Origin: Bacillus sp. 2B10
Lineage (GTDB): Bacteria > Pseudomonadota > Alphaproteobacteria > Sphingomonadales > Sphingomonadaceae
Direction of reading: 5' to 3'
DNA: 64,000 nt
Assembly (NCBI GenBank): GCA_003946805.1
Contig: RPSH01000010.1
Location: forward strand, 41,310-105,309
Positions 18,778-61,758 of the stretch are shown one piece after another; positions within the stretch are counted from its first letter, which is position 1; the number at the start of each line of letters is the position of its first letter. A program made the position numbers and the translations under genes. Under the pieces are notes generated by a model. That model made no database searches and was not told the origin of the DNA. It saw only the letters and a program-made list of their open reading frames with translations.

Positions 18778-18949
18778 CGTGTCCCCTCCCATTTCCGTCC
18801 CCGTCGGGGATCGGCTTTCCCGATTGATGGGACATGCCCGGCTGGTGGCAGTGTCCCCGTGTCTTCCCGCCCGTGTGCCGGACGCCATTCGACACCCCGC
18901 GAAATGCAGGTGATGCCGATCCGTAATATCGTTGGTCGCCCCGTGCCGG

Positions 18950-21757: not shown

Positions 21758-21867
21758 CCGGCGCGTCACCTCCCCAGCTCCCACGTCCTGCCTCGATCGT
21801 TTGTCAGGCCGGTACATAGGGGTAGACGCGGCGCTTTCGAAAACCCGTATAGTCCGACAAAATTAGT

Positions 21868-28809: not shown

Positions 28810-28869
28810 GGCTGATGCAAGCTAGGGATGGTTGGTGTCCCGTCCGAACGATCCGAAGGAAATGCCGAC

Positions 28870-31656
28870 GTGACCCTCTCCATCACTTCGACCGTGACGG
28901 CATTGTTTGCCGGTGCCGCGCTCGTCCTGCCGGTCCCTGGTGCGGCCCGGACGATGACGCCCCCCGCCCCGTCACCGTCGACGCGTGTCGCACCGGCCCC
29001 GCCTGCGTCGATCAGGCTCGACTACCAGCGTTTCACGCTGCCCAACGGGCTGACGGTGCTGGTCCATACCGACCATTCGGTGCCGAACGTGTATCTCGGC
29101 ATCTGGTACAAGACCGGATCGAAGGACGAACCCGTCGGCCGCAGCGGCTTCGCGCACCTCTTCGAGCATCTGATGTTCCAGCAGACCGCCAACCGCAAGG
29201 GCGAGTTCCTGACGATCATGGACCAGGCCGGCGCTTCGGACATGAACGGCAGTACGACGACGGACTACACCAGCTACTACGAGATCGTGCCGACCAACGC
29301 GCTCGACATGGCGCTGTGGATGGAATCCGACCGGATGGGCTATCTGGGCGGCGGCATCACGCAGGAGGTGCTCGACGAGCAGCGGCGCGTGGTCAAGAAC
29401 GAGAAGCGGATGCGCGAATCCGCAGCCGCCGAGGAAGTGCAGCGCAGGTTCATGGCCGCCTATTATCCGCCGAACCATCCCTATGCCCACACGACCATCG
29501 GTTCGATGGAGGATCTCGACGCTGCCTCGCTCGACGATGTGCGACAATGGTTCGACGAACATTACGGCGCGGGCAACGCGGTACTCGTCCTGTCCGGCGA
29601 CATCGACCTCGCGACCGCGAAAGAGAAGGTGTCGAAATACTTCGGCGCGCTGCGGAGCGGCAAGGCCTTCAGCCGGCCGGACCAGTGGGTACCGGCACTG
29701 GGTGCGACGCGACGCGATCTGGTGTATCTCGACGGGGCGGCCCCGCAACTTACCCGCACCTGGCCGGTGTCGAACGACGACCCGCACGGCAACACGCTGT
29801 TGCTGCTGGGCGCGCGGACGATGACGTCGGTGCGCAATGCCCCCTTCACCGACTATCTGGTAAACCAGGCGAAGGTGGCGACTGCGGTCGAAGCGGATTT
29901 CAGCAGCGACCAGCTCGAAAGCAGGTTCAGCGTCGCGATGCAGTTGCGCCCAGGCGTGACGCCGCAGGCGGCCAGCGCCGCCCTCGACGTCGCGCTCCGC
30001 CGCTTCTTCAAGACGGGCCCCACCCCGGCAGGGCTGACCTCGATCATCACCGGCACTGACACCGCGATACTGCGCGCCATGGACAGCAGTGCGTCGCTGG
30101 GTCAGTTCCTGATCGAAGGCGAGGTGATGCACGAGGATCCGGGCTTCTTCCTCAAGCAGCGCGACTGGGCGCTAGCCGCGACCCCCGCCGAGGTCGCGGC
30201 GGTCGCCGGCCGGTCGCTCGGTGCCGGCCGCCCCTATTACGAGCAGGTGATCCTGCCACAGCCCGAGGCCGCGACGCGCGTGGCGGACGTCGATCGCAGC
30301 CGCATCCCGCCACCCGGACCGTTGAAGACGACGGTGACGATGCCGCAGATCACGCAGATGACGCTGTCGAACGGGATGAAGCTGGTCGTTGCCGAGCGAC
30401 ACAACCTGCCGATCGTGGACATGTCGATGCAATTCGACACCGGAACGCTCGCCGAGCGCAGCTACGCGCCCGGTGCGGCGGCCGCTGCATTTCAGCTCTT
30501 GCCGGCGGGTACGGCCACCCAGGATGCGGAACGGCTCGCGGAACGTTCATCGCTACTCGACGTGCCGCTTTCGCCCTCGGTCGATGCGCAGGGGGGCGCG
30601 TTCCGCTGGAGCGCAGGCACCGCGCGGATCGAGGAATCCTTCGCATTGGCCGCCGACGTCCTGCGCCATCCCGCCTATCCGGCAGCGGCGGTGGCTGCCG
30701 CCGCCGCCAGCACCGCCCAACGCCTGCAGGAGGAACCGGACCCGGAGGCACGCGCCGAACGGCTGTTCGCCAACGCAGTCTGGGGAAATGACGATCCTCG
30801 AGGGAAGCTCGAGCGCCCGGAAGCGTATCGCGGGTTGACGCGCGCGGCGGTGGTCCGTTTCCACGATGGCGAAATCGGCCCGTCCAATGCCACGCTGCTG
30901 ATGGTCGGCGACGTCACCCCGGCCCGGGCGAAGGTGTTGGCCGAGCGCTATTTCGGCAGCTGGCGCCCGAATATGCCGGCGGCGGCCGCCACGCTGCCGC
31001 CTGCCCGCGCCCAGCGGTCGCGCATCATCCTGGTCGATGCCCCCGGCGCCGCCCAGAGCAGCATCACCGTAGGCAACGTCGCCCCGGCGTTCGGCACCGC
31101 CAGCGACCCGGCCGAACAGGTCGCCAGTGCAGTGCTGGCGAACGGATCAAGCGGCCGGCTGAACATGAACCTGCGAGAGACGAAGGGATGGACCTACGGT
31201 TTTGGCGGCGGGATCGACGATGCTGCGACCGGCGACCGGCTGTTCACCGTCGGCGGTGCGATCGAGACGGCGCACACGGCGGAGGCGATGGCCGAAATCC
31301 GGCGCGAAATGACCGCCCTGCTGACCGATCGCCCCATCATCGCGCCGGAACTGGAAGGGGTGCAAAGCACGGTGATCCGTTCAATCGCGCAACGGGTCGC
31401 CGGGGCCGGCCGCATGCTGGACACCTTGAACGCGGCGCGCAGATACCGGATGGCATACGACTCGGTCACCTCTGCTGCGGATCGGGCGTCCGCCGTATCG
31501 CTGGATGCCGCCCGCGCCGCCGCCGGCCGGATCGTGAAGCCGGACCAACTGACATGGGTGGTGGTCGGCGACCTGAAGACGATCGAGCCGGAGATCCGCG
31601 CGCTGGACATGGCCCCGGTCGAAGTGTGGGACGCCAGTGGCAAAAAGCTGCGCTGA
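28870..31656 (+). CDS. M16-family zinc metallopeptidase, tandem two-domain form
   Basis: About 928 residues from GTG 28,870, chosen for the ribosome site GAAGGAA; an ATG at 28,828 is also in frame. A signal peptide (LFAGAALVLPVPGAA) predicts a periplasmic or outer-membrane location. The first half carries the inverted zinc motif HLFEH near residue 96 with the downstream glutamate region VKNEKRMRES. The second half (from about residue 490) has the related fold without the motif (LSNGMKLVVAERHNLPIVDM). This active/inactive pairing is typical of processing-peptidase-like M16B enzymes that degrade or process peptides. It faces the TPR operon across a hairpin. Confidence 0.9.
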   Translation: MTLSITSTVTALFAGAALVLPVPGAARTMTPPAPSPSTRVAPAPPASIRLDYQRFTLPNGLTVLVHTDHSVPNVYLGIWYKTGSKDEPVGRSGFAHLFEHLMFQQTANRKGEFLTIMDQAGASDMNGSTTTDYTSYYEIVPTNALDMALWMESDRMGYLGGGITQEVLDEQRRVVKNEKRMRESAAAEEVQRRFMAAYYPPNHPYAHTTIGSMEDLDAASLDDVRQWFDEHYGAGNAVLVLSGDIDLATAKEKVSKYFGALRSGKAFSRPDQWVPALGATRRDLVYLDGAAPQLTRTWPVSNDDPHGNTLLLLGARTMTSVRNAPFTDYLVNQAKVATAVEADFSSDQLESRFSVAMQLRPGVTPQAASAALDVALRRFFKTGPTPAGLTSIITGTDTAILRAMDSSASLGQFLIEGEVMHEDPGFFLKQRDWALAATPAEVAAVAGRSLGAGRPYYEQVILPQPEAATRVADVDRSRIPPPGPLKTTVTMPQITQMTLSNGMKLVVAERHNLPIVDMSMQFDTGTLAERSYAPGAAAAAFQLLPAGTATQDAERLAERSSLLDVPLSPSVDAQGGAFRWSAGTARIEESFALAADVLRHPAYPAAAVAAAAASTAQRLQEEPDPEARAERLFANAVWGNDDPRGKLERPEAYRGLTRAAVVRFHDGEIGPSNATLLMVGDVTPARAKVLAERYFGSWRPNMPAAAATLPPARAQRSRIILVDAPGAAQSSITVGNVAPAFGTASDPAEQVASAVLANGSSGRLNMNLRETKGWTYGFGGGIDDAATGDRLFTVGGAIETAHTAEAMAEIRREMTALLTDRPIIAPELEGVQSTVIRSIAQRVAGAGRMLDTLNAARRYRMAYDSVTSAADRASAVSLDAARAAAGRIVKPDQLTWVVVGDLKTIEPEIRALDMAPVEVWDASGKKLR

Positions 31657-31710: not shown

Positions 31711-34700
31711 TCAACCGGAGGGAGCGGCGACCGTCGCGTCGAAGTGGGGCAGGGTGACGTCGGGGGCGATCGTCGCGGCCAGGCGGCGATCGGCGAACAG
31801 CTTCGCCAGCGCATCATAGGTAGTCCGCGCCGCCGCCCGGTCGGACCAGACCGTCAGCGCTCCGGCGATCGCCTTCGCATCCGCCTGGTCGGGCTGGCCA
31901 ACGCTGTAGAGCAACTGCAGCGTGGCCGCGCGGAGCATCGCACCTGCGGACACAACGTCGCCGCTCCGCCCCAGTACGCGCGCCGCAGCGATCCTGTCCC
32001 TCACGGATAGCATGGTCGCGGTATCGAGCTGTGCCATCAGCGCCTGCCGCTGCGCAGGATCGAGCACAAGGTCGGTCCGGTCCGCGAGGCGCACGGCGAG
32101 GCGCAGGTCGGAAACCGGGATCGGACCGGCGACGAGCCCGGGCAGCAACCTGGCCAGTCGCGCCGCTGCGCCGCCGCGTCCGACGATACCGTCGACCAGC
32201 CACGTATACAGGCGCGCCGCGATTGCCGTCTGCGACGGATCGAGTACGGCCAGATAGGCTTCCAGTTCTGCCGAGACGTCGGCCCGTGCCATGATGACGC
32301 GTAGTCGCGCGGCTTCGGGTCCGGTGAACAAGGCGTCGTCCAGCGCGGCAACGACCGCTTCGCGTGTCAGCGCGCTCCAACCGGACGATTCGGCACCCGG
32401 AACCGCACTGCGCCGCCACAGGCTGCGCAATGCGCCGGCGGCGGTTTCGGGGCGTTCCAGAGCCTCCTGTACGAACTGGCTTACCGCCTGTTCCTCCATC
32501 GACCCGGTGGCCCGACGCGCGGCCGCGCCGGAACGCTTCTGGAGCGCGACCACCACGGGCGCATCTGGGTTCGACTGTTCGAACGCCGCGTAGACGCTGC
32601 CGAACATCGCGGACGGGTCGGGCGCGGTGCCGCTGCGCTGCGCCGCACGATTGAGCAGCCGCGTCACCCAACTGGGATCGTCGAGAGAGAAGCCATTCGC
32701 GGTGGCCACCGCCTGCGCCTGCGCCGCTCGGCCCCGTTCGAGTTCGGTGAAGGCCAGGACCGTTGCCACACCGCGATTGTCCGGATGATCGCGCAGATAT
32801 CGTGTGAGCAGCGCGACATAGGCGTCCTTGTCGCTCGGCCACAATTTCCACAGAAGGTTGACGATGTAAGTCTGATTGTTCGGATCGATCGCCAGCAGCT
32901 TGCGATAATAGACGATGACGCGGTCGTTCGGTTCATTGCTCGTCGCAACGAACTCCGTATAGAATCGCTGGGCCTCCTCGACCGTTGGGTTCGACGCATT
33001 CATGAACGCGTCGATGCGCGCCTGCCGCTGTTCCGCGAAATAGCGTTTGGTCAAGTCTGCCGAGAAATCTTCGAACTGCGCCGCGTTTGATTGTTGGGCC
33101 AGGGTCAGGAGGAGGCGGTAGGCGGTTGGTCGGTCGTTGGCATACCATGCCGAGAGCAGGGCGGGCATGGCCGCGGCGTCGCGGTAGCGCGCGGCGATCG
33201 TTTTGGCCGCTTCCAGCAGCGCCGCGCGGTTGCCGGGATCGGCGTCGAGCACCAGAAATTTCGACAGGATGAAGCGCGAACTGTCCACTTCGCGGTCGCG
33301 CACGATCGCGATGTCGCGGCGCATCACCGCCAGCAGCCTTTGCCGCAGCGCGGGATCCAGCGGCGATACCAGCAGGTCGCGGCGCGCCTCCAGCGCGAGC
33401 AGCGACGGCGGGGGGCCGCCATTTTCCGCGCGGGCGACCAGCCCCTCGTACAGCGCGAGCTGGCGTTCGGGCGGCAGCGCGGCGATCCACGCGAACGGAC
33501 GCGCGTCCGCCTGCCGCAGCCCGCGCAGGGTGAAGCCGGTGCCACCGTCCGACCGTTCCACCGCGACCCGCACCAGTTCGTCGTCGGTCAGCAGCGGGCG
33601 ACCCGCGATCTTCTGCAACAGGGCATAGCGATCGGGCAGGACGTTGAGCAACGCGAACAGGATATCCTCGCGGAACCGCGATGCCTGCAACGGTTCGAGC
33701 AACAGGTCGCGGACCTGATCGGGCGGCAGCCGTTCGACCAGATCGGCCAGCAGCAGGATGAACGATCCCGCGCCGTCCGAAGGACCGAACGGCGTCGGCT
33801 TCGCACGCCCCGCCTCTTCACGCCGCATCGTGTCCGCGATCATCCGTCGCAGGTGGCCGGCATCGCCGGTGGCGAGCATGGTCGCCACCTCCAGCGAGAC
33901 GTCGTCGGTGTCGCGCGCCTGCCGCAGCAGGTCGGCCAGCGGATCCCCCGGTGCGCCGTCCGTCGCCGCCGGCGCGGCGCCGGGCAGGCGCGCGACGACC
34001 GCGTCGATCGCGCCGGCGAGCGCCGTGTCGCCCCGTGCCGCCGCGATCTGTCGCCCGATCTGGACGATCAGGCGCAACCGGCCATAGTCGGCGAGCGGCA
34101 GGGGCGTGCGGCCGGCGATCCGCGCGGCGGCATCGTCGAGCATCGCACGCAGTTCGCGCGGCACCGCCGTCTGCGTCGCGGGATCGGACGGCATGGTCAG
34201 CAACAGGCCCTCGACCAGATTGGGGACCACCCGTTCGATGTCGACCTGGTTGTCGGGCGCGGCGTCGCGCGACAGGACCGGCTGGCGCGCGATGACCGCG
34301 CGGAGCGACCGCCAGTACCATGGGGCGGCAAGCGCCCCCTGCCCCTTCTGTTCGCGCAGGATCGATGCCTTGACGACCAGATCGAGGTTGTTGCGGTCGC
34401 GCAGCATCGCCCGCACGAGGGTCCGCAGCGCCGCGTCGGTATAGCCGCGCCGGGCATAAGCCTCGCCGCTGATCGCATCGACGTTGAAGACGTTGCCGAT
34501 GCCGTTCATCATCGCGAACGCGCCTTGCGCACCCGCACGGTCGCCGACCGACAGCATCGCTTCGCCCAGTTCGCCGTAGAAGGCGGGCGGAAACAGCCGC
34601 TGGAGCGCCAGCAGACGACGGCCATAGACGATGCGGCGCCGCACGTCGCCGAACACGGTCGCCTCGCCGTCGACCGAACTGCCCGCCGTCAGCGTGACGA

Positions 34701-37134
34701 GCTGTCGCAGCACCGACGCGCGCTGTTCGCCCGCCGCCGGCAGCGACGCATCGAGCGCGCGGAGTTGCAGGTCGGCGTCCGAGCGGGCATCGGCCAGATC
34801 GGCGATACGCCCGATCAGGCCGGGATCGGCACCGGCCAGCGCGAGGCGTTCGATCGCGTGGCGGCGCGCCCAGTCGAGCGCGACGTCGGCAACCACCGGA
34901 TCGGCACCGACCAGCCCGTCGAGCAACCCGTCGAGCACGCCGACGAACCGGCGGGTGGAGGTCGCGACCTCCCCCTCGAACTGGAGCATGGCGATGGCTT
35001 CGCGCACCTTCCCCGCCTTTTGCATCGCGGCGATCAATTGCGCCAGCGCATCGGCATCCCCCGGCGCGGCGGCATAGGCGGCCCGCGCCTGTGCCAGCGC
35101 GCGATCGTCGAGATCGGCCATGCCGTAGATCCCCGCGCGGAACGCATGGGTCGCGACGCCCGCGCCCTCGGCCTTGCCCAGTTCGGCCAGCAGGCGGTCG
35201 ATCTCGGCGATCCGCCGTTCCGCCGGAAGGTTGCCGCCCTCGCCCACCGCGGTCAGGATGCGGTTGCGCAGATAGGTGGCCCGGTTGGCGGGATCGATCA
35301 CCGACAGGCGTTCGAGCGCGGCGGCAAGTTCCGCCTGCTTGTTCATCCGGGCATAGACGGGAATCAGCTGGCGCAGCCGCGCCGCTTCCCCGCCGCCGGT
35401 GCGCGCGACGAAGCGCCGCATCGCCGCCACCGCCTGGTCATAGCGTTGCTGGCTGAGGCGCAGCGCCATCAGCAGGCTGATCTGATCGTCGGACAGGGTG
35501 CCGGTGTCGAGGCGACGTTCCAGTTCGGTGGCGATCGCGTCGGTATTGCCGCTGGCGTTCGCGACCTCCACGATGCGGGTTTCGATCAGGCTGCGCCGTG
35601 CCGGCAGTTCGGTGACCGGCAACAATCCGCGCAGCCGTACCAGCGCCTCGTCCTGCCGGTCGGCCTGCACCAGCAGGTCGGCCAGCCGCACCTGCTGATC
35701 GTAGCCGAGCGGTCGGCCCGGCCGCTCCATCGACAGGAACGTCGCGATGGCATCGTCGCGCCGCCCGATCGCGGCATAGCCCTCGGCGATCTGCGCCAGC
35801 GCCGGGCTGCCGGCCGGAACGCCCGCGCGCATCGCCTGCAACTGTTCGCCCGCGCGGGCAACGTCGCCCTGCGCGACATAGGTGTCGAACAGGAACCGGC
35901 GGGCGTCCATCCCGCCGGGACCGTTCGCCACGCCCGCGATCATCGCGATCGCCGCATCGGACAGCCCCATCGCGATCATCTGTCGCGCGCCGTCGATCAG
36001 GACCGGGACGTTCGTGCGATTGGCCGCGCGCAGCCGGTCGAAGACGCCCCTAGCCTCCGCCTCGCGCCCGTCCTGCATGTAGATCGCGGCGAGCGCGACG
36101 TACCAGCGCGGGTCGTGCGGCTGCGCCGCGATCAGGCGGCCATATTCTGCGATGCTTTCGGCACGGTTGCCGGCAAGGTCGAGGATCGCGGGCAGACGTT
36201 CGCGCAGCGCACCCGCGCCGGGCGCGGACGCCATCGCCACCGCTTCGTCGTTGCGGCCGAGTTCCAGCAACAGGTTCAGCCGCATCTGGCGGATATCGGC
36301 GTCCTGCGGCTGTGCGGTCAGGAACGCATGGGCCCCGGCAAGGTCGCCGCCGTCGCGATACGCCTCGGTCAGCAGCGCCAGCGCGTATCGCCGGTCGTCG
36401 ATCGTCGTCAGGGCGCGGTACGCCTGCCACGCGCGTTCGCGCGCCACCGTGCGGTCGCCGGCGACCAGCGCCCATTCGGCGACACGCAACAGGTCGGGTC
36501 CCGCGCCGGGGCCGCCCGTGGCGGGGCGGAACAGCGTCAACGCGGCCGCCGGATCGCCCAGCACGCCGAGTGCGACCGCGACCGGCCGTGCCCGGTCGGC
36601 GGGCAGGGTGCGGCCATAGGCGGCCAGCGCCGACGGATCCGACAGTCCGCGCAGGACCGCGACTCGCAGCGCCAGCGCATCGCCCCCCGCCCCGGCCGCC
36701 TGCGCCGCGCGATACGGACCCAGCAGGTCGACATCGCCCGCCGCATCGGCGAGCCGCGCCCCGAGCAGCAGGACGTCGCCGTTCGGGTCGAGCGCCGCCG
36801 CCGCCGCCGCAGCGGCGCGTGCCCCCGGCAGGTCGCCGCCGCGCCACAGCAGCGCCGCCCGGACCGCCTGCGCCCGCGCGCGCGACCGGGCGTCCCCGGT
36901 CCGCGTCGCCGATTCCACCCGCGCCATCAGCGGACCGACCGCATCGGCGAGCAGCGCCCGATCGTACAGTTGCCCGATCGTGGCCAGATCGAGCGTCCGC
37001 GCGGCCAGCACCGCCGCCGGATCGACTGTCGCCGCCGGCGCGGTCGCCAGCGCGCTGCCCAGCGCGGGGACGGAACAGGTGCAGGCGAGGACCGTGAGCA
37101 GCGCCGCCGTCAGGGGAAACCGGGTCATCAACAT
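31711..37134 (-). CDS. Giant TPR-repeat protein, candidate lipoprotein (1,807 residues)
   Basis: The ATG at 37,134 overlaps the upstream stop by 1 nt (TGATG), fixing the start by coupling. The N-terminus MLMTRFPLTAALLTVLAC ends in a lipobox-like cysteine at position 18. The rest is almost entirely Ala/Leu/Asp/Arg helical hairpins with TPR spacing, for example RWYVALAAIYMQDGREAEAR, LAQIAEGYAAIGRRDDAIAT and VKASILREQKGQGALAAPWY. No enzymatic motif is apparent. Its size far exceeds ordinary TPR adaptors such as BatB/BatE-type proteins. As the last gene of the MoxR/VWA operon it may form an envelope scaffold for the VWA proteins; that is inference. Confidence 0.85.
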   Translation of the reverse strand: MLMTRFPLTAALLTVLACTCSVPALGSALATAPAATVDPAAVLAARTLDLATIGQLYDRALLADAVGPLMARVESATRTGDARSRARAQAVRAALLWRGGDLPGARAAAAAAAALDPNGDVLLLGARLADAAGDVDLLGPYRAAQAAGAGGDALALRVAVLRGLSDPSALAAYGRTLPADRARPVAVALGVLGDPAAALTLFRPATGGPGAGPDLLRVAEWALVAGDRTVARERAWQAYRALTTIDDRRYALALLTEAYRDGGDLAGAHAFLTAQPQDADIRQMRLNLLLELGRNDEAVAMASAPGAGALRERLPAILDLAGNRAESIAEYGRLIAAQPHDPRWYVALAAIYMQDGREAEARGVFDRLRAANRTNVPVLIDGARQMIAMGLSDAAIAMIAGVANGPGGMDARRFLFDTYVAQGDVARAGEQLQAMRAGVPAGSPALAQIAEGYAAIGRRDDAIATFLSMERPGRPLGYDQQVRLADLLVQADRQDEALVRLRGLLPVTELPARRSLIETRIVEVANASGNTDAIATELERRLDTGTLSDDQISLLMALRLSQQRYDQAVAAMRRFVARTGGGEAARLRQLIPVYARMNKQAELAAALERLSVIDPANRATYLRNRILTAVGEGGNLPAERRIAEIDRLLAELGKAEGAGVATHAFRAGIYGMADLDDRALAQARAAYAAAPGDADALAQLIAAMQKAGKVREAIAMLQFEGEVATSTRRFVGVLDGLLDGLVGADPVVADVALDWARRHAIERLALAGADPGLIGRIADLADARSDADLQLRALDASLPAAGEQRASVLRQLVTLTAGSSVDGEATVFGDVRRRIVYGRRLLALQRLFPPAFYGELGEAMLSVGDRAGAQGAFAMMNGIGNVFNVDAISGEAYARRGYTDAALRTLVRAMLRDRNNLDLVVKASILREQKGQGALAAPWYWRSLRAVIARQPVLSRDAAPDNQVDIERVVPNLVEGLLLTMPSDPATQTAVPRELRAMLDDAAARIAGRTPLPLADYGRLRLIVQIGRQIAAARGDTALAGAIDAVVARLPGAAPAATDGAPGDPLADLLRQARDTDDVSLEVATMLATGDAGHLRRMIADTMRREEAGRAKPTPFGPSDGAGSFILLLADLVERLPPDQVRDLLLEPLQASRFREDILFALLNVLPDRYALLQKIAGRPLLTDDELVRVAVERSDGGTGFTLRGLRQADARPFAWIAALPPERQLALYEGLVARAENGGPPPSLLALEARRDLLVSPLDPALRQRLLAVMRRDIAIVRDREVDSSRFILSKFLVLDADPGNRAALLEAAKTIAARYRDAAAMPALLSAWYANDRPTAYRLLLTLAQQSNAAQFEDFSADLTKRYFAEQRQARIDAFMNASNPTVEEAQRFYTEFVATSNEPNDRVIVYYRKLLAIDPNNQTYIVNLLWKLWPSDKDAYVALLTRYLRDHPDNRGVATVLAFTELERGRAAQAQAVATANGFSLDDPSWVTRLLNRAAQRSGTAPDPSAMFGSVYAAFEQSNPDAPVVVALQKRSGAAARRATGSMEEQAVSQFVQEALERPETAAGALRSLWRRSAVPGAESSGWSALTREAVVAALDDALFTGPEAARLRVIMARADVSAELEAYLAVLDPSQTAIAARLYTWLVDGIVGRGGAAARLARLLPGLVAGPIPVSDLRLAVRLADRTDLVLDPAQRQALMAQLDTATMLSVRDRIAAARVLGRSGDVVSAGAMLRAATLQLLYSVGQPDQADAKAIAGALTVWSDRAAARTTYDALAKLFADRRLAATIAPDVTLPHFDATVAAPSG

Positions 37135-39611
37135 CAGCGCACCGCAGGGTTCGGGGCGGCACCGGCACGGCGCGACGGCCACCGGCGACAGCCCAGTTCG
37201 AGGATATACAGCAGCATCGCACCGAGCGCGAACCACGGCCACAGATCGGCCGCCGCGGGGATTCCGGCATCGATCGCCGGCGGCGCATCGGCCCCGTCGC
37301 CCACGCCGCCGGTCGCCGCCGACAGGGCAGCCAGCGGGATCGGTCGCCCGCGCGATCCCGACGACGGTTGCGTCGCATCCGAATAGGGGGCCGCCGCCGC
37401 ACGGGTCACGGCGGTGCCGTCGACGGCCTCGACCATCGCGGCCCGATCCGCCGGCCAGCGCAGCCGCGCCTCGAACAGGCCCGGCGCACGCTGTTCGACG
37501 GCACGCACCGGCCGGACAGCGCCGTCCGCACCGATCAGGCGCAGATCGGGAACGCCGGGCCGCGCGGTGTCGGTGCGTTGCGCGACGATGGCGATCGTGT
37601 CGCCGTTCCGGGTGACCGTCAGGTCCATGACCGGCCGCTGCCGCGCGGTCATCGCCACGACGCGCGCCAGCCATGCGCCATAGCCCGGCCAGCCGCGCCA
37701 GCGCGCCGTGCCCGCACCCAGCGGTTCGGTCATCAGGGCCGTCACCCGGCCCGCGCCATAGAACCAGGTGGCGAGGACAGGATCCCCGGTCGCGGTGGCG
37801 ACCAGCGTGTCGGCGACCTGCGGGCGGGTACGGACCCGTGCATAGCCGTCGAGCGGGGGCGGCGTCGCGGCGGTCGTCCCCGCCGGCCACCAGTTCGCGG
37901 CACCGGTCGTTCGCAGCGGGAACGCCCCCTCCCGATACCCCGCCTGCGGCATGGTGCCGGGCTGGCGGAAATCGAGCGCGACGAGGCTGTGTTCGTCGGG
38001 CACCGCATAATAGCGGCCGCCGCCCCAGCGCGCCCATTGCGCCATCGTGTCGTCGGGCTTGCCGATGCCGACGACCGACACGGTGATGCGATCGCGCGCC
38101 GCCTGTTCCAGCAGTTGCTGGTAGCGATCCGACCCGACGCCGCCATCGGTCAGCACGACCATGTGGCGGAACCGGGTGTCGGCCTCCTTCAGCGCGAAAT
38201 ACGCCTCCTGCAGCGCGGGGAACAGCACGCTCGCGCCGTCGGCGCTCATGCGGCCGATCGCGCGCTCGACCTCGTCGCGGTCGGTGGCGGGCTGCATCGG
38301 AACGGCCCATTGCTGCGCGCCGTAGAATTCGACCACGCCGACCCGGTCCCGCGGCGTGAGCTTGCGGACCGTCTGGCGCGCGACCTGCTTGGCCAGTTCG
38401 ATCGGCGTACCGCCCATCGAGCCCGAGGTGTCGATGATGAACGCGACGGCGATTGTCGGCTGCTCGACCTTTTCCTCCTGCCGCGCCTCGACCGGCAGCG
38501 CCTGCGCCAGCGGCACGCCGCGGACATAGCCGCCCGCCCCGAACGCCGCGCGCCCGCCGGACACCAGCAGCCCCGTGCCCCGGTCGCGTACCGCCGTCAT
38601 CAGCCGCCGCTGCGCCCCGGCCGGCACCTGCGCCGCCGGCACATCGTCCAGCATGACGAGCGGATAGTCCGCCGGATCGGCGCCGAGCGCGGACGGTCCG
38701 GCGGCGTCGACCGCGACACCGGGACCGAGCAGGCGGCGCAGCGACGCGGCTGCACCCGCCTGTCGCGATCCGGCATAGAGCAGGCGCAGCGGGTCCTGCA
38801 CTGCCGCCACGGCGGTCGCCTGCGCCACGGGCGCGCCGCCGGGGGCACCCAGCGCCACGCGCAACGGCACGAAGCCGGCACGTGCGGCCGGAAATTCCAG
38901 TTCGACCTGCGCGTCGCCCGCCGCGTCGAACGGTGCCGAGGTGGCGAGGCGGCGGCCGTCGCCGTCCAGTGTCACGACCCGCCGCCTTCCGTCGCCCTGC
39001 ACCGCCACCCGGACGCGAACCTGCTCGCCGATTCGGGCCGGCGCGACGCGCACGTCGGTGATCGCCGGACGGCCCGGCGGCGCGGTCAGCGGCGTCGTGT
39101 CGACCGGGATGCCCCGTTCCGCCAGCGCCGCCGCCGCGTGCTGCCAGCCGCGATCGGCGGACATGCCGTCGCTCAGCAGCCGCACCCGCCCCGCCGTACC
39201 GGCGGGCAGCGCGTCGACCGCGCGGTCGAGCCCGGCGGACAGCGTGGGTTGTACGGCCAGGCGCTTCGCGATGCCCTCGGCCGCGACGGGCCTGCCGCCG
39301 ACCTGCACCAGCGTGACCTGCGTCGCCGGCGCGCGGGTGGCCAGCAGCCGCGCCAGTTCGCGCCGCGCCTCGGCCGCCGCCGCCGCGCCCATCGCGGGAC
39401 GCTGGTCGAGCACCACGACGATGCGCTGCTGCCCCGAACGATAGACGAGGCCCGGCTGCATCAGCGCGACGACCAGGACGGCGAACACCGCGGTCCGCAA
39501 CGCCACGATCCACCGACGCCGGACCGGCCGCGCCATCCACCAAACGAGCGGGAGCAGCACGAACAGCCATGCCGCCAGCGGCTGCAGGAAGGTGACGTCG
39601 ACGACAGGCAT
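37134..39611 (-). CDS. Membrane-anchored VWA-domain protein with amidotransferase-like region
   Basis: 825 residues. The ATG at 39,611 overlaps the preceding stop by 1 nt (TGATG). Two N-terminal helices (PLAAWLFVLLPLVWWMA, IVALRTAVFAVLVVALMQ) and one C-terminal helix (LWPWFALGAMLLYILEL) leave a large periplasmic body. A region near residues 270-380 (DYPLVMLDDVPAAQ, GTGLLVSGGRAAFG) resembles the class I glutamine-amidotransferase-like fold found in such proteins. The VWA domain follows with a complete MIDAS start DTSGSMGG near residue 394 and VVLTDGGVGSDR. VWA domains bind metal-dependent partners and are typical clients of MoxR ATPases, encoded in the same operon. Confidence 0.85.
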   Translation of the reverse strand: MPVVDVTFLQPLAAWLFVLLPLVWWMARPVRRRWIVALRTAVFAVLVVALMQPGLVYRSGQQRIVVVLDQRPAMGAAAAAEARRELARLLATRAPATQVTLVQVGGRPVAAEGIAKRLAVQPTLSAGLDRAVDALPAGTAGRVRLLSDGMSADRGWQHAAAALAERGIPVDTTPLTAPPGRPAITDVRVAPARIGEQVRVRVAVQGDGRRRVVTLDGDGRRLATSAPFDAAGDAQVELEFPAARAGFVPLRVALGAPGGAPVAQATAVAAVQDPLRLLYAGSRQAGAAASLRRLLGPGVAVDAAGPSALGADPADYPLVMLDDVPAAQVPAGAQRRLMTAVRDRGTGLLVSGGRAAFGAGGYVRGVPLAQALPVEARQEEKVEQPTIAVAFIIDTSGSMGGTPIELAKQVARQTVRKLTPRDRVGVVEFYGAQQWAVPMQPATDRDEVERAIGRMSADGASVLFPALQEAYFALKEADTRFRHMVVLTDGGVGSDRYQQLLEQAARDRITVSVVGIGKPDDTMAQWARWGGGRYYAVPDEHSLVALDFRQPGTMPQAGYREGAFPLRTTGAANWWPAGTTAATPPPLDGYARVRTRPQVADTLVATATGDPVLATWFYGAGRVTALMTEPLGAGTARWRGWPGYGAWLARVVAMTARQRPVMDLTVTRNGDTIAIVAQRTDTARPGVPDLRLIGADGAVRPVRAVEQRAPGLFEARLRWPADRAAMVEAVDGTAVTRAAAAPYSDATQPSSGSRGRPIPLAALSAATGGVGDGADAPPAIDAGIPAAADLWPWFALGAMLLYILELGCRRWPSRRAGAAPNPAVR

Positions 39612-41323
39612 CACGGCATCCATCCGCGTTGGAACAGCACCCATTCGAGCGCGAGCAGCAGCAGCGCGGCGAGCACCAGCAGCGTGAAGACCGGGTCGGG
39701 CAGGGTGCCGCCCAGCGGCGTCACCGCCAGCGCCCCGGCGGGCTGCGCCGCGCCCAGCGTGGTCGCGCGATCGGTCAGCGACACCGCCATCGGACGGTCG
39801 CCGGCCCCGGCCGTGCCCGCATCGCCCAGCGGCCGGTCCCCGAACAGCTGCCGCGCGGCGGCATCGCGCCGGTCGCCCAGCCCGTACAGCGCCGACTGGT
39901 CGGGCACCGGCGCACCGGCGCGGGCATAGGGCACCCACGGGTCCGGCGCCGCCAACCAGCGCAGGCTGCGCGAGACGAACAGCGGCAGCGTCGCCGAACG
40001 TGCGAAGGGGGAGGCGGGGTCGAGAAGTTCGGCCCAGACGGAGACGGTCGGCAGACGACCGGTCTCCATCCGTACCGAGACCGGACGCCGCAGGCGGTCG
40101 GCGATCGCGCGCGCGTCGATACCGGCAAGGCCGAAATCGTCGAGCTGCGCGGAGAGTGCGGGGCCGGCCAGCGGATCAGGCGTGCGGAACAGGAACGCGT
40201 CCGCCTGCGCCGCCGCCGGCACCGCCACCAGCGCGGGCAGCCCGCGCGGATCGGCGTCCGCGGACGTTCGCACCAGCACCTGCGCATCGGCAGCGGGGAC
40301 GACCGTCAGCGCCGTGTCGGACGCCACCGCCGCGCGTACCGTCGCGGGCACCCCCGGCGTCAGCGCGACCCGGATGGGCCGCCGGTCGGGCAGGCGCAGC
40401 ATCGCATCGTCATCGGCCGAAAAGGCGTCGCCATCCAGCAGCGATACGGTCAGCACCCGCCCGTCGGCGGGTACGTCGCGCACCACGAACGCACCGGCGC
40501 CGAGCGTCTCGACCCGGGCGGGGCGATAATCGCGGTCGCCGAGCAGGAACGACAGCGCGTCGATCGCCGGCGGAGCGACCCCCGCCCCCGCCGTCCCGAC
40601 GATCACGTCGGCCCGGTCCCAACGCCCGTCCGCCGCCGGGCTGGCGCCCAGCGCGACGATCCCGCGATTGCCCGCGACCGGAGCGGTCAGATAGCCGTAG
40701 TCGAGCCGGACGTTTGACGGCAGCCCCGCCGCCGCCGCCCGCGCCGCCGCCGGACTGCCGTAATAGCGCACGACGAGCGGCGCATTCGCAGGCAGGTCGC
40801 GCACGCGTGCGGCGAGCCATGCCGCGAACGCCGATGGCCGCGCACCCGCCGTCACCCGGTCGAGGCGGCTCGACAGCAGCGACGCGCTCTCGCCGGAATC
40901 GAGCAGTCTGGTGCCCTGCGCATCGCCCAGATATACCGCGCGATCGGCGGCATCGAGCGCGCGGACGTCGGCGAGCAGCGCACGCCTGGCGCGCGCCTCC
41001 TCGCCATCGGCGACCATCGCCGCCGACGCGTCGAAATAGAACAGTGTCCGACCGCCCCCGCCCGCCGGCGTCGCCATCGGATGCGCGACCGCGAGCCACA
41101 GCAGCAGTCCGATCGCCAGCGCGAGCAGGAAGGCGAGCCAGTAGCGGAACCGCGCGCCGAGCACCGGCATCCGCGACGCCTCGGTCGCCTGCCGCCACAG
41201 TGCGGCGGTCGGCAGCGCGAGCGGCCGCCGGTGCTGGCGCAAGCGTTGCAGGACGTACAGCAGGGCGGCGATGGCCAGCGCGCCGGCCAGCACCACCGGC
41301 CATGAAAAACTGGCGAAGGTCAT
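39611..41323 (-). CDS. BatA-like membrane protein
   Basis: 570 residues from ATG 41,323, which overlaps the DUF58 gene stop (ATGA). The N-terminus has the BatA-type pattern: a helix (VVLAGALAIAALLYVLQRLR), a short segment HRRPLALPTAALWRQATEA, then a second helix (YWLAFLLALAIGLLLWLAV). The central part is VWA-like in layout (TLFYFDASAAMVADGEEARA) but the MIDAS serines are replaced (D-A-S-A-A), so metal binding is doubtful. A C-terminal helix (DPVFTLLVLAALLLLALEWV) anchors it again. It is in the order DUF58-BatA-VWA-TPR, as in Bacteroides aerotolerance-type operons, although the function here is unknown. Confidence 0.82.
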   Translation of the reverse strand: MTFASFSWPVVLAGALAIAALLYVLQRLRQHRRPLALPTAALWRQATEASRMPVLGARFRYWLAFLLALAIGLLLWLAVAHPMATPAGGGGRTLFYFDASAAMVADGEEARARRALLADVRALDAADRAVYLGDAQGTRLLDSGESASLLSSRLDRVTAGARPSAFAAWLAARVRDLPANAPLVVRYYGSPAAARAAAAGLPSNVRLDYGYLTAPVAGNRGIVALGASPAADGRWDRADVIVGTAGAGVAPPAIDALSFLLGDRDYRPARVETLGAGAFVVRDVPADGRVLTVSLLDGDAFSADDDAMLRLPDRRPIRVALTPGVPATVRAAVASDTALTVVPAADAQVLVRTSADADPRGLPALVAVPAAAQADAFLFRTPDPLAGPALSAQLDDFGLAGIDARAIADRLRRPVSVRMETGRLPTVSVWAELLDPASPFARSATLPLFVSRSLRWLAAPDPWVPYARAGAPVPDQSALYGLGDRRDAAARQLFGDRPLGDAGTAGAGDRPMAVSLTDRATTLGAAQPAGALAVTPLGGTLPDPVFTLLVLAALLLLALEWVLFQRGWMP

Positions 41324-42225
41324 AGCGGCAGCGTTCCCGGCGCGAGGACCACGCTCAACTGGTCGAGCACATCGCGGTCGGCGTCGAGCCGGACCAGCGC
41401 CGCGCCGCGCCCGCCGGCGAACCCGTCCAGCCGGGCGCGGAACGCGGCATAGGCGTCGCGATACGCGGCCAGCAGCGCGGGCGTCACCGTCAGCGGAACC
41501 CCGCCGCCCTCGCCATCCTCGATCAGCACATCGCCCGTCAGGCCGGGGTGGAGCGAAGGATCGGCATCGTGCCGCCGCACCAGCTGCACCAGCAGCAACC
41601 GGTGGCGCAGCCGTCCCATCGCCTGCGTCACCGCATCGATCCCGGCGTCGTCCATGAAATCGGACACGACGACCACCAGCCCGCGGCGCAGCTTCATCGT
41701 CGCCAGCATATCGCACGCCGTGGCCAGATCGGTCCCGCCGCCGGGACGGGTCTGGGCCAGCATCTGCGCCGCGCGCACGATCCCCTGCCGTCCCGACAGG
41801 TTGCGGGCGCGGACCTCGATTCGCTCGGCCACGTCGATCAGCGTCACGGCATCGACCTGGTTCAACGCCACTGCCGCGATCGCGAGCGACGCGCGTAGCG
41901 CCGCCGCGATCCGGGGCTGCGGCTCGACGAACATGCTGCGCGACACGTCGGTCATCACATAGACCGGCAGATCCTGCCGTTCCTCGAACACCCGCACGAA
42001 CGTCTTGCCGAGACGGCGGTAGATGTTCCAGTCGATCGTACGCAGGTCATCGCCCGCGACATAGGGTTTGAAGTCGGCGAAATCGGAACCCTGCCCGCGC
42101 GCGAACGTCCGCTGATCGGCGAGCCGCCCGCCCTTCTGCGCCTGCGACACGCGCAGCGAAAAGGCATCGAGCCGCGCGAGAAAGCTCGGGTCGAACAGGT
42201 CGAGGAACGTGGGAACGACGGTCAT
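41320..42225 (-). CDS. DUF58 domain-containing protein
   Basis: 301 residues. It carries the DUF58 core FADFKPYVAGDDLRTIDWNIYRR near residues 48-70, followed by a VWA-like fold (YVMTDVSRSMFVEPQPRIA with a D-x-S-x-S MIDAS, then GGTDLATACDML and VVVVSDFMDDAG). DUF58 proteins are almost always encoded next to MoxR ATPases and are thought to be their substrates. The start overlaps the upstream gene stop by 1 nt and the end overlaps the BatA-like gene by 4 nt. No membrane helices are evident, so it should be cytoplasmic or peripheral. Confidence 0.9.
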   Translation of the reverse strand: MTVVPTFLDLFDPSFLARLDAFSLRVSQAQKGGRLADQRTFARGQGSDFADFKPYVAGDDLRTIDWNIYRRLGKTFVRVFEERQDLPVYVMTDVSRSMFVEPQPRIAAALRASLAIAAVALNQVDAVTLIDVAERIEVRARNLSGRQGIVRAAQMLAQTRPGGGTDLATACDMLATMKLRRGLVVVVSDFMDDAGIDAVTQAMGRLRHRLLLVQLVRRHDADPSLHPGLTGDVLIEDGEGGGVPLTVTPALLAAYRDAYAAFRARLDGFAGGRGAALVRLDADRDVLDQLSVVLAPGTLPL

Positions 42226-43700
42226 CAGCGTGCCTGTCCGTTGCGACGCAGGAAATAGTCGCGGACGATCCGGTCGTCATGCACGCCGGTTTCGCGGTGG
42301 ACCACGTCACCCGCCGTTCCGTTCTGCGTACCGCGATCCCCCGCCGTCACGACCGGCGCGGGCGCGCCGCGCGGGCGCGCCGGACGCAACATGCTGGTCG
42401 ACCGGCCCGGACCGGCCGCGCCGGAGACGCGATCATCCATCGGCACCGCCAGCATCAGCGCCGCCGCGCCGCGCGACCGCTTCAGCGCGTCGGCCCCGGT
42501 CGTGCCGCCACCCGAACCGGTCGAGCGCTGCCCGCCGTTTCGCGACTGGCCGGGTCGGCCGCCCTGGCCCCGCTTCGCCTGGTTCGCGTTGCCCGAGGGG
42601 GTGCGGCTCGCGCTGTTCGCCGCGGAAGGGCCAGCGCGGGTAGGCATGGCGGCCGCGGCCGCCGGGGACTGTTGCGACCCACCGGGCCGGGGCGCGGCCC
42701 GAGGCGGCGGCGATGGCGGCGCGCGGCCGGCAGGATTGGCGGTCCGGTCGCCCGCATCCGTCCGGTCGCCACCCGCATCGCGGTCGATGACGCCGCCGGG
42801 CTCGCCGGACTGCGGGCTGCCGGCGCCGCCCTTCGGCGCAGCACGCCCGCCCGGCGCGCCGGGACGGTCGCCCGCGCGCGACGCGGTATCGGCGGCGGTC
42901 GCCGGCCCCTGTCGCGGGGACACGCCTGCTTCCTTGCCGGCCGCGCCGGTACCCGCCCCGGACCGGCCACCGGGCGATCCGGCGGCGGACACGGAGTCGT
43001 CGGAGCGCCCGCCCGCCGACGGTGACCCGCCGGTTTCCACCCCGAAGACGCGCGCCGCCATGTCGCGGATCCGTTCCACGGCCGCGACGGCCGGGGGGGT
43101 CCGGGAATCGACGGCATCGGCGGAGCGGGCGTCGTGCAGACGCAGGTCGCCAACGTCCGTCTCACCCGCGTTGCCGACCAGCATCGCGGCCAGCACCAGC
43201 ACCGCCGCCCCGCCGGCCATGAGCACGACGTCGCGGCGGATCGGCGATCGTGCGGACGCCGGCAGTTCGACCCGCGCCGCCAGCGCATCGTCCAGCCACG
43301 GCATCGCTTCGTCGATCGCGGCCTGGCGATAGCCGTCGCGGCGGGGCAGCCCGGCGAACTCGTCGACCGTGCCGATGCGGTCGTTGGTCGCAAGCCGGCG
43401 GTCGAGCGTGGCGAGCGCATCCGCGCGGGCGACCCGCACCCGACGCTGCAGGATCGCGACGGCGATCGTGCCGACGGCGATCGCGAGCGCCGGCACTGCC
43501 AGCACCGACCACCCGGTCGCACGATAGCCCGACAGCGCACCAAGCAGCAGTACCGCCGACGCCAGCAGCGCCGTCGCGGCGGCGAGTCGCAAACCGGTGC
43601 GGATCGCGGCGCGCCGGGCGCGGCGCATCACGAAACGCCGCCCCTTGACCTCCAGCCTGTCCAGCGGAGATGCGACCGCCGCCTCGATATGCACGTTCAT
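42225..43700 (-). CDS. Membrane protein with Gly/Ala/Arg/Pro-rich low-complexity C-terminal half
   Basis: 491 residues. The first 160 residues contain two close helices (LAAATALLASAVLLLGAL and SVLAVPALAIAVGTIAVAIL), a soluble helical stretch (LATLDRRLATNDRIGTVDEF), and a third helix (VVLMAGGAAVLVLAAMLVG). From about residue 200 to 490 it is low complexity (Gly, Ala, Ser, Pro, Arg, Asp), for example GGTTGADALKRSRGAAALM near residue 410. The position between the aspartyl protease and DUF58 genes is often taken by a DUF4175/DUF4129-like membrane gene, but I do not recognise the family with certainty. The disordered tail presumably lies in the periplasm. Confidence 0.75.
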   Translation of the reverse strand: MNVHIEAAVASPLDRLEVKGRRFVMRRARRAAIRTGLRLAAATALLASAVLLLGALSGYRATGWSVLAVPALAIAVGTIAVAILQRRVRVARADALATLDRRLATNDRIGTVDEFAGLPRRDGYRQAAIDEAMPWLDDALAARVELPASARSPIRRDVVLMAGGAAVLVLAAMLVGNAGETDVGDLRLHDARSADAVDSRTPPAVAAVERIRDMAARVFGVETGGSPSAGGRSDDSVSAAGSPGGRSGAGTGAAGKEAGVSPRQGPATAADTASRAGDRPGAPGGRAAPKGGAGSPQSGEPGGVIDRDAGGDRTDAGDRTANPAGRAPPSPPPRAAPRPGGSQQSPAAAAAMPTRAGPSAANSASRTPSGNANQAKRGQGGRPGQSRNGGQRSTGSGGGTTGADALKRSRGAAALMLAVPMDDRVSGAAGPGRSTSMLRPARPRGAPAPVVTAGDRGTQNGTAGDVVHRETGVHDDRIVRDYFLRRNGQAR

Positions 43701-43785
43701 CCATCCCCTCGGGCGGGATCGTGAGCACCGCCGATCGTCAATCCTGACAGGTCAGCCTTGCACGAAGCTGTCGCTGGTCGACGGA

Positions 43786-44682
43786 TCAACGGGCAGGTGC
43801 CACCGGCGATGGCGGCTTGCGCAGGTGCAGTTCGCCACGCGGGAAATCAAGGGCATAGACCTGCAACGCCGCCAGCAGGTCCAGCCCGACGATCATCGTC
43901 GGCGGATCGCCCGCCTCGCCACCGCCCAGCCCGTCGGCGAAGACGACGCGGACGTTCCGGCCGATCGCCGGGCCGATCTTCACGCTGTCCATCGTCGCGA
44001 CCTGCGCCGCGCTGCCGCCGCCCGCCGCGCCGCGGATCTGGCCATAGGGCGCGAGCCGGGAATCGTCGGCTTCCCAGCCGATCGCGCGCAGGACGTCGCT
44101 GCCCGCGACGCTGCCCTGCGCGCCGGTGTCGATCAGTCCGCGGATCAGCACGCCGTTGAGCGTGACCGGCACGACCAGCCCTTCGCCGGGGACATATTCG
44201 CCGCGTACCGCGACGAATCCCGCCGGGGTCGGTCCCGACGGTTCGACCCGCACCTCGTCGCGCACGCCGTCGAACACGAGCCGCCGCCCTTCGAACAGGT
44301 CGACACCGGCGATCACCTGCGCATCGGTCGCGCCGATCGACGATACGCCGGGGATTTCCGCGTCGCGCAGGTCGAACAGGCGGTTGCCGAACCGCCCGAC
44401 GCGGTAGAGGCGAACCTCCTCCGCCCCCGCCACGCCGCGCACGCCGATCGTCCCGTCGGCGGGGACGAGGCCGAGCGCACGCGCGGCGTCGTCCCGCATG
44501 ATCGTGCTGCCGGCGGCGGTATCGATCACGACATCGACCGGCCTGCCGTCGATCGTCGCGACGACGACCGGGCGCCCCTTGCCGTCGCGGCGCATCGGTT
44601 CGGCGGCGGTCGACGCCACGGGCGGCGCGGCCGGCGGCGCGGCCTGTGCCATCACGGCGAGGGACATGACTATCGCGAGCAT
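43786..44682 (-). CDS. Exported two-lobed aspartyl protease (retropepsin/pepsin-like)
   Basis: 298 residues with a short signal peptide (MLAIVMSLAVMAQA). Both catalytic aspartate loops are visible: DVVIDTAAGSTIM near residue 53 and IRGLIDTGAQGSVAG near residue 183. This gives a single-chain enzyme with two retropepsin-like lobes. The first loop has DTA where the canonical motif is DTG, which retroviral-type family members tolerate. An exported protease inside a MoxR/VWA operon, with an M16 peptidase gene facing the operon, suggests envelope proteolysis. It starts 42 nt after the moxR stop. Confidence 0.82.
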   Translation of the reverse strand: MLAIVMSLAVMAQAAPPAAPPVASTAAEPMRRDGKGRPVVVATIDGRPVDVVIDTAAGSTIMRDDAARALGLVPADGTIGVRGVAGAEEVRLYRVGRFGNRLFDLRDAEIPGVSSIGATDAQVIAGVDLFEGRRLVFDGVRDEVRVEPSGPTPAGFVAVRGEYVPGEGLVVPVTLNGVLIRGLIDTGAQGSVAGSDVLRAIGWEADDSRLAPYGQIRGAAGGGSAAQVATMDSVKIGPAIGRNVRVVFADGLGGGEAGDPPTMIVGLDLLAALQVYALDFPRGELHLRKPPSPVAPAR

Positions 44683-44724
44683 CGGCCCACTCCTTCGTAC
44701 AGAAAACGGCCGCCGGGCGGCGGA

Positions 44725-45747
<1,023 letters not shown>

Positions 45748-45824
45748 CTTGTCCCTGTCGGTCGAGAATCGCGGGCGGCCATCCTGCCACCGCAAACTTG
45801 CACCAGGCTGGCAGGATGGCCGCG

Positions 45825-46496
45825 TCAGGCGATGGCGAGGCGATAGCCGACGCCGCGCACCGCCACGATGCGGACGGTGCCGGTGCGGTGGATGAGGTTG
45901 TGGCGCAGGCGCGAAATCTGCGATTCGAGCGAGTTGGCGTTGACCAGATTGTCATAGCCGTAGACGCGCGCCTCCAGCGTCTGGCGCTGGACCAGCGCGC
46001 CCGGGCGGGCCATCAGCTCGGCCAGCACCAGCGCCTCTGTCCGGCGCAGCACCAGCGGTTCGTCGTCGACGTAGAACGCGCCGGTATCGGCGTCGTGGGT
46101 GAGGCGGCCGAACCGGCGCACCTCATGCTCGGTCGGCATGATCCGCCGCAGCGCGTTGCGGATGCGCGCAAGCAGCTCGCGCGGTTCGAACGGCTTGCCG
46201 ATATAGTCGACCGCGCCCAGTTCGAGCCCGGCGATCCGGTCGTCCACCCCCGCCAGCGCGGTCAGCAGCAGGAAACGCTGCGTGGCGCCCCGCCGTCGCG
46301 ATTCGGCGATCAGGTCGGCACCCTCGCCGTCGGGCAGCATCCGGTCGAGGATCACGAGGTCGAAGGCGTTGGTCGCCAGCGCCTCGCGCGCCATGTCGAG
46401 GCTGTCGGCGAGGTCGACGACATAGCCGTTGCGACGGAGATAGGCTCCGGTCGTCTCGGCTACGTCCAAATCGTCCTCGACGATCAGCAATCGCAT
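45825..46496 (-). CDS. OmpR-family response regulator heading the MoxR operon
   Basis: 223 residues. The receiver domain has the acidic pair E-D-D at positions 7-9, phosphoacceptor Asp51 in VILDRMLPDG, Thr79 and Lys101 in YIGKPFEPRE. The winged-helix output domain ends with LESQISRLRHNLIHRTG and IVAVRGVGYRLAIA. There is no adjacent kinase. It is the first gene of the leftward MoxR/protease/VWA/TPR set and begins 60 nt after a TonB receptor gene. The unpaired histidine kinase at 27,322-28,809 is the closest candidate partner; this is inferred from proximity only. Confidence 0.9.
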   Translation of the reverse strand: MRLLIVEDDLDVAETTGAYLRRNGYVVDLADSLDMAREALATNAFDLVILDRMLPDGEGADLIAESRRRGATQRFLLLTALAGVDDRIAGLELGAVDYIGKPFEPRELLARIRNALRRIMPTEHEVRRFGRLTHDADTGAFYVDDEPLVLRRTEALVLAELMARPGALVQRQTLEARVYGYDNLVNANSLESQISRLRHNLIHRTGTVRIVAVRGVGYRLAIA

Positions 46497-49604: not shown

Positions 49605-49855
49605 CGGTGCGTTTCCCCCATGACCGGTCGTCTCGTATCGGCGATCGCTCGCTGCCCGCTCCTTTTTGGAGTCGATGACAGCACCGGCGAGCAAGACCGA
49701 ACGTCGATCGGACCAGTCGTTGTTCCCGTGAAAGAATTATGACGGCAAGCTTGCACGAACCTTGCCAATATTCGGGCGACCTGCTGCCCGCTTTCTGGAT
49801 CGCCTTGAGCTGGAAAGATCAAGTCATGAAGGAGGACCGGCAAGTGGAGCGAGCG

Positions 49856-55436: not shown

Positions 55437-55438
55437 GT

Positions 55439-58877: not shown

Positions 58878-58880
58878 GGC

Positions 58881-60325: not shown

Positions 60326-60355
60326 CGATGTTCTCCTGATTCCTGTGCGAAAATC

Positions 60356-60638: not shown

Positions 60639-60650
60639 GGCGACCACCGA

Positions 60651-61722: not shown

Positions 61723-61758
61723 AAATCTCTCCTGTTTGATCCGCTCACGCGGATGGGG

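Follow-up and report, generated by a model that had tools for sequence, protein, structure and literature searches.

The window analysed here, a 64,000-nucleotide stretch of DNA from Bacillus sp. 2B10 (GenBank assembly GCA_003946805.1, contig RPSH01000010.1, positions 41,310 to 105,309; Sphingomonadaceae in the GTDB lineage), carries a conserved cassette of eleven genes. These encode a TonB-dependent receptor, a response regulator, a MoxR ATPase, an aspartyl protease, a membrane protein with a low-complexity tail (hereafter memb), a DUF58 protein, a BatA-like protein, a VWA protein, a very large TPR protein, an M16 peptidase and a histidine kinase (Table 1); MoxR and the five genes from memb to TPR are referred to below as the core. 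An earlier note on this DNA, made from the letters alone, had described the genes from the regulator to the TPR protein as an operon for an envelope machine. The eight minus-strand genes are there as described, but the receptor, the M16 peptidase and the kinase are conserved together with them, and the eleven-gene cassette, not the eight-gene operon, is the right unit. Its products may form a trans-envelope machine that combines the import of a protein or peptide, its cutting in the periplasm and its handling by a MoxR-driven membrane complex, a reading to which a probability of about 0.5 can be attached.

The extent of the unit follows from its recurrence. Among 295 genomes of the genus, a profile built from the alignment of the VWA protein found the full-length protein in ten, counting the window's own; because just two to three candidates per genome were scored, absences may be over-counted. 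In each of the ten, all eleven genes fall within a stretch of about 22-24 kb, and the neighbourhood comparison that the earlier note had proposed thus gives a gene set that is not limited to this genome. Mean protein identity between the window and its nine relatives is only about 30-79%, depending on gene and clade, and since the set recurs at such distances its conservation is more than chance. With the aspartyl protease alone as query, the 295 genomes return the same ten (38-100% identity, E <= 3e-45) and two further, remote matches (31% and 27%, E 4e-20 and 8e-18). Relatives of the M16 peptidase occur in 267 of the 295, those of the cassette type (at least 47% identity, E <= 3.2e-227) in the ten only, the next match being at 39%.

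Beyond the genus, the profile search retrieved the full-length VWA protein from one of 347 genomes of a family sample, which is the window's own, and full-length homologues from five of 385 of a class sample, where the four besides the own one are remote and differently arranged. A single-sequence search with the VWA protein in an order sample of 147 genomes gave one full-length match beyond the own genome (37% identity), in a genome (G075) with the six core genes on a 10-kb contig. The class-level relatives (loci L138-L142) hold a VWA protein of the cassette type, with MoxR and DUF58 in four of five each, arranged in other orders, and no cassette receptor or protease was matched in these remote alphaproteobacterial loci. 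The other MoxR of the window's genome above the AAA_3 cut-off (L131, contig C43) belongs to a different, conserved-looking cluster of membrane-protein genes, and none of the other cassette proteins matched in the 20 kb around it. A plasmid-borne element was considered and rejected, the VWA protein being without a match in 72,556 plasmid records (E 1e-30).

A predicted operator marks the same genes. An expectation-maximisation search, made de novo on the sequences upstream of the receptor gene in the ten genomes, five of which belong to one clade, yielded the motif CAAGGTTnGTGCAAGCnT, with 23.4 bits against 12.2-13.3 in six shuffled sets. It amounts to a direct repeat of GCAAG (GCAAG-n6-GCAAG) with a period of 11 bases, the form expected for a regulator of the OmpR/PhoB type, and is also present before memb, MoxR and M16. 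The PHO box is described as two 11-nt direct repeats to which PhoB binds head to tail (PMC4415409). Exact matches to the pattern CMAGNYTNNTGCAAG number 36 across the ten genomes, of which 33 fall inside the cassettes and 3 elsewhere; the reversed control pattern has 8, more than those 3. In the window's genome there are three exact matches, all of them inside the cassette. A further copy, before memb, deviates at one position (at this tolerance 0.25 are expected in the window). Across a genus sample of 201 genomes, matches are found in the 7 cassette genomes and in 59 of the 194 others, which carry 85 copies, or 0.44 per genome; set against this figure, the 3 copies outside the cassettes imply that cassette genomes show background only outside their cassettes. 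Eight stretches elsewhere were looked at for further regulon members that might hint at the substrate: six around motif copies, drawn from five non-cassette genomes and one other genome, and the two remote aspartyl protease loci. They hold no cassette gene beyond the match at issue, save a weak regulator match of 29%.

Sites that point towards the gene are found before the receptor, memb and MoxR in all ten genomes and before M16 in eight, the two remaining genomes having M16-oriented sites in the same divergent region, beyond the called M16 start. A matrix trained on the receptor sites exceeds the null maximum (taken over 3,000 null segments) before memb in ten of ten genomes and before the receptor, its own training set, in eight. 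A TA lies 10 nt past the second GCAAG; it is clearest before memb, where nine of ten genomes have TAG, and before the window's receptor, where CATAAT (49736-49741) stands 10 bases into the sequence downstream of the predicted site. For the aspartyl protease, a clear separate motif is seen in just one genome; in the window its gene lies downstream of MoxR. On the side of the protein, all ten genomes share the regulator residues NSLES.ISRLR without change, and the regulator is predicted to bind the GCAAG repeat. The cassette is likely, as far as can be predicted from these sequences, to be one regulon with several promoters and under its own regulation. Sites before MoxR and memb would divide the eight genes between separate promoters and, together with a hairpin resembling a terminator behind MoxR (44710-44723; the scan gave 9 such sites against 5.6 expected), they count against the single operon proposed earlier.

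Table 1. Genes of the cassette and predicted regulator sites (positions in the window)
Feature	Position	Strand	Observations
TonB-dependent receptor	46557..49604	-	Plug and beta-barrel domains; start likely GTG 49604
OmpR/PhoB-type response regulator	45825..46496	-	Pfam Response_reg and Trans_reg_C
MoxR AAA+ ATPase	44725..45747	-	AAA_3 206 bits, with lid; Walker A conserved
Two-lobed aspartyl protease, predicted exported	43786..44682	-	Both lobes in Pfam
memb, membrane protein with low-complexity tail	42225..43700	-	No family above cut-off; kept in 10/10
DUF58 protein	41320..42225	-	DUF58 106 bits; DxSxS like that of a metal ion-dependent adhesion site (MIDAS) in ten genomes
BatA-like membrane protein	39611..41323	-	BatA N-terminal domain just under cut-off
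VWA protein, membrane-anchored, GATase1-like halves around VWA	37134..39614	-	VWA 65.5 bits
TPR protein, 1,807 residues, signal-like N-terminus	31711..37134	-	TPR_19; TPR gene 3' of VWA in 10/10
M16 peptidase, active and inactive halves in a single chain	28828..31656	+	Matches 3amj chains C, B; HLFEH
Histidine kinase	27322..28716	-	HisKA and HATPase_c; two hydrophobic segments; start likely ATG 28716
Predicted regulator site before receptor	49750..49764	-	Exact pattern match
Predicted regulator site before MoxR	45797..45811	-	Exact pattern match
Predicted regulator site before memb	43757..43771	-	One mismatch; 18.5 bits, null maximum 16.1
Predicted regulator site between M16 and kinase, M16-pointing	28807..28821	+	Exact pattern match

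Within the eight-gene stretch, most of the gene types named from the letters are recovered by Pfam, namely the OmpR-type regulator, MoxR, the aspartyl protease lobes, DUF58, the BatA-like protein, VWA and TPR, although the BatA match, at 23.7 bits, is under the curated cut-off of 25.9 and, for the protein called VWA/amidotransferase-like, the VWA part is confirmed while the GATase-like match is weak. The overlaps are likewise as described, with 1 nt between memb and DUF58 at 42225, 4 nt at 41320-41323 and 1 nt at 37134; that at 39611 measures 1 nt with ATG 39611 as the start of the VWA gene and 4 nt with GTG 39614. The five genes linked in this way are probably co-transcribed. The MoxR reading frame reaches back to TTG 45795, but a predicted site lies directly upstream of this codon, which makes ATG 45747 the likelier start. 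Comparison does not support the lipobox claimed for the TPR protein: in the nine relatives the signal-like N-termini, for some of which the start codon is uncertain, have no cysteine at a conserved place.

The ten cassettes are built from blocks that have partly been rearranged. Receptor, regulator and MoxR form an uninterrupted run in all ten genomes (60 nt separate the end of the receptor gene from the regulator gene in the window), as memb, DUF58, BatA, VWA and TPR are consecutive in all ten; the kinase directly follows TPR in nine, and M16 is divergent from memb in nine. In the window, the opposite-strand M16 gene and the kinase gene lie downstream of the eight minus-strand genes. Among the nine relatives, other genes stand between MoxR and memb, or MoxR comes after the memb-to-TPR genes, and the aspartyl protease gene occupies four different places in the ten genomes. 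Its embedding between MoxR and memb, pointed out earlier, is real in the window and peculiar to it, for in the nine relatives the gene sits outside the MoxR-to-TPR stretch, at three other places. Flanking predicted genes are common to one genome pair only, as judged from simple gene calls on short flanks, which indicates separate insertion sites.

Three clades, A (five genomes), B (two) and C (two), which were named after the data had been seen, are recovered in all eleven gene trees (for the MoxR tree, the protein of genome G521 was taken from its listed reading frame). The window joins clade C for the receptor, regulator, MoxR, aspartyl protease and kinase (support 96-100) and clade A for TPR (100), VWA (93), BatA (79) and M16 (75), while memb (63) and DUF58 (39) do not settle its position. 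Approximately unbiased (AU) tests on five genes reject the alternative grouping for TPR, receptor, kinase and MoxR. This conflict points to exchange between a sensing and import module, which includes MoxR, and an assembly module, and the cassette as a whole seems to have passed from genome to genome, with partial reshuffling of the two sets of genes.

The idea of import is drawn from a TonB-dependent receptor and a single-chain M16 peptidase that occur as a pair, as in protease-associated import systems, and from the presence of two proteases predicted to be exported. This pair shares one cassette in ten of ten genomes, and the receptor, kinase and M16 genes, which the earlier note had missed, shift the likely function towards import. 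Residues 69-465 and 509-920 of the window's M16 peptidase match the active and inactive halves of 3amj (chains C and B, respectively); FusC and PqqL are likewise described as single-chain M16B enzymes (PMC12731061). The aspartyl protease has invariant catalytic-type residues D54 and D185, passes the Pfam cut-off for Asp_protease_2 and scores 50.5 bits against TIGR02281, under the cut-off of 57.95. Its structural model (predicted local distance difference test, pLDDT, 87.9) aligns over nearly its full length with the putative endopeptidase 9iy9 of Bacteroides fragilis (template modelling score, TM, 0.66 by query), as well as with the pepsin-like renins and tethered HIV-1 protease dimers, and by this model it is a single-chain, two-lobed enzyme.

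Among the core proteins, memb (491 aa) has the three hydrophobic segments of the membrane protein that had been described, and the tail called disordered is rich in A, G, P, R and S, with no Pfam family above cut-off. Although poorly conserved overall, it keeps (R/Q)(L/V/I)(L/V)(x)xYF at its C-terminus (gene at 42225-43700) in the ten genomes, possibly a docking tail. The VWA protein shows a conserved DxSxS and profile matches to GATase-like structures on both sides of the VWA domain; its whole-protein fold search (model pLDDT 80.8) is convincing for the VWA domain only. An active GATase is expected to have a cysteine. The VWA protein has a single one, close to its C-terminus (residue 812 in the 829-aa reading), and the GATase1-like domain is cysteine-free. 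The BatA-like and VWA proteins have a pair of hydrophobic segments at the N-terminus and one segment at the C-terminus, which in the VWA protein of the window is under the hydrophobicity threshold yet is a helix in the model. From these segments, and from the charges around them read by the positive-inside rule, the large domains of both are predicted to be on the periplasmic side. The TPR protein scores 48.6 bits against TIGR02917 (PrsT of XrtA/PEP-CTERM systems), under the cut-off of 312.2.

The way in which these parts might work together can be outlined in four steps. The kinase would sense a cue from the envelope or the substrate and phosphorylate the OmpR/PhoB-type regulator. As predicted from the conserved sites, the regulator would then occupy GCAAG-n6-GCAAG in the -35 region of separate promoters serving the receptor-regulator pair, MoxR, the memb-to-TPR genes and M16, so that the cassette would activate itself. 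The families involved suggest that the receptor carries the substrate across the outer membrane and that M16 and the aspartyl protease cut it in the periplasm. Finally, the BatA-like, VWA/GATase-like and membrane proteins may form a complex in the inner membrane on which MoxR and DUF58 act from the cytosol. The VWA side of this complex is predicted to look into the periplasm, where the giant TPR protein could scaffold the substrate or the proteases.

Several results weigh against this reading. The cassette points to no substrate and has no TonB partner and no inner-membrane (ATP-binding cassette, ABC) transporter, and in a sequence search against solved structures its receptor matches colicin I, B12 and siderophore receptors, mainly in the plug, and not FusA. 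The operator is uneven, as the matrix exceeds the null only in 5 of 10 genomes for MoxR, 6 for M16, 1 for the aspartyl protease and none for the kinase or the regulator (some misses arise because start codons were called too early), and a scan for the sigma-70 consensus found nothing at the predicted sites. For the VWA gene, the AU test leaves a grouping with clade C unrejected (p 0.082). Lastly, the receptor, the M16 peptidase and the aspartyl protease are found in 0 of 17 core loci outside the genus, among the matches listed.

These 17 loci (L022-L038, examined out of at least 80 listed, several on short contigs) come from Stenotrophomonas, Phenylobacterium, a gammaproteobacterium, planctomycetes and other bacteria. 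DUF58 and VWA are present in all 17, BatA in 16, MoxR and TPR in 15 each and memb in 11, and kinase and regulator occur together in one. The core is therefore wider than the cassette, and its general job may be broader than import. In planctomycete and gammaproteobacterial members (L024, L025, L030, L032 and L038), a gene of about 550-880 residues, with weak TPR matches at best, lies upstream of memb and is possibly an additional part of the core outside the genus.

A core that stands elsewhere without receptor or proteases suits the strongest rival, in which the cassette is a Bat-type module whose core maintains the envelope under stress. The receptor and proteases would then not be an import route but clients of the module or enzymes of its quality control. 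Published work ties RL3499 to envelope integrity and cell morphology, and reports that a two-component system of Riemerella controls the moxR of its Bat operon and that this moxR affects survival of heat and oxidative stress. However, the receptor, M16 peptidase and aspartyl protease are of cassette-specific types, stand beside the core in ten of ten genomes and share its motif, and presence in only 10 of 295 genus genomes is odd for housekeeping, even if the search may over-count absences; the stress module is accordingly a serious candidate but the less probable one. Uptake of a small ligand (a siderophore or metal complex) or protection from a peptide toxin, with the proteases processing cassette proteins or the toxin, seems unlikely. 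The receptor's structural matches would agree with it, and mobile, patchy and self-regulated cassettes would suit functions in conflict, but no convincing match to known defence was obtained for the ten proteins searched (kinase excluded), and two proteases with an AAA+/VWA/TPR machine would be much for a small ligand. For these ten proteins PADLOC gave weak matches to the regulator, MoxR and aspartyl protease and none to the seven others, and a known anti-phage defence system was rejected. A plain eight-gene operon with one promoter before the regulator gene and incidental neighbours, which the overlap of the last five genes would favour, is highly improbable, given neighbours kept with the set in ten of ten genomes though their order differs, predicted sites before MoxR and memb, and an order of MoxR and memb that varies in the nine relatives.

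The trans-envelope import machine is preferred. Of the earlier proposal, a regulator-controlled envelope machine joining proteolysis to MoxR/VWA/TPR assembly is favoured by the gene content in ten of ten genomes and by the near-exclusive operator-like motif, and the single operon falls away. More tentatively, and with clearly lower probability, the cassette could be a self-contained, horizontally moving and self-regulated import machine, in which the MoxR/VWA complex with its TPR scaffold powers or gates the handling of receptor-imported proteins fed to the two proteases. If true, this would be a new way of eating protein and would give a Bat-like MoxR machine its first defined job. The job of Bat-type MoxR/VWA/TPR machines is a long-standing question. 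In the cassette such a core is linked genetically with a receptor, two proteases and a two-component switch of its own, with a mapped predicted operator that is nearly confined to the cassettes, and this makes inducer, substrate and partners directly testable; it also means that a Bat-like core can be taken up and transferred as a module.

Other loci of the window include a carbohydrate-uptake-like locus beside the cassette (11479-22845), with a DUF5695 protein, a FecR-like protein and two long reading frames that by eye resemble TonB-dependent receptors. An APH-family phosphotransferase (50684-51487, 116 bits) lies between the cassette and a gene-transfer-agent-like or prophage cluster (53310-63248), which has matches to an Rcc01698-like tail protein, a baseplate hub, a non-contractile tail sheath protein and an HK97-type capsid.

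Among known systems, the Bat operons of Bacteroides, Leptospira, Borrelia and Riemerella bring together the same MoxR, DUF58, BatA-like, VWA membrane and TPR proteins, and that of Riemerella is reported to be under two-component control, as in the cassette. The cassette differs in having no BatD-type Pfam match among the proteins searched, in a VWA domain set inside a GATase-like fold, in its giant TPR protein, in the placement of MoxR with the receptor and regulator genes, and in the added import and protease genes. RL3499-RL3502 of Rhizobium leguminosarum is also reported to be a MoxR-type envelope operon. The protease-associated import systems FusA/FusC and YddB/PqqL likewise have a TonB-dependent receptor beside a single-chain M16 peptidase with HxxEH (PMC6793856); the cassette adds the MoxR/VWA/TPR core, a second protease and its own two-component system, lacks a TonB or ABC partner, and has a receptor whose sequence matches in the structure library do not include FusA. 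The M16B peptidase SPH2681/SPH2682 of Sphingomonas sp. A1 (3amj) consists of two chains, which are one chain in the cassette. The RL3499-RL3502 operon is reportedly without receptor, proteases, regulators of its own or a giant TPR protein, and is set apart from the cassette by description only. No description of a combination of MoxR, receptor, M16, VWA and two-component genes was found among open-licence papers. The parts with a recognised family are all of known families, and it is their combination, the near-private operator and the mobility that look new.

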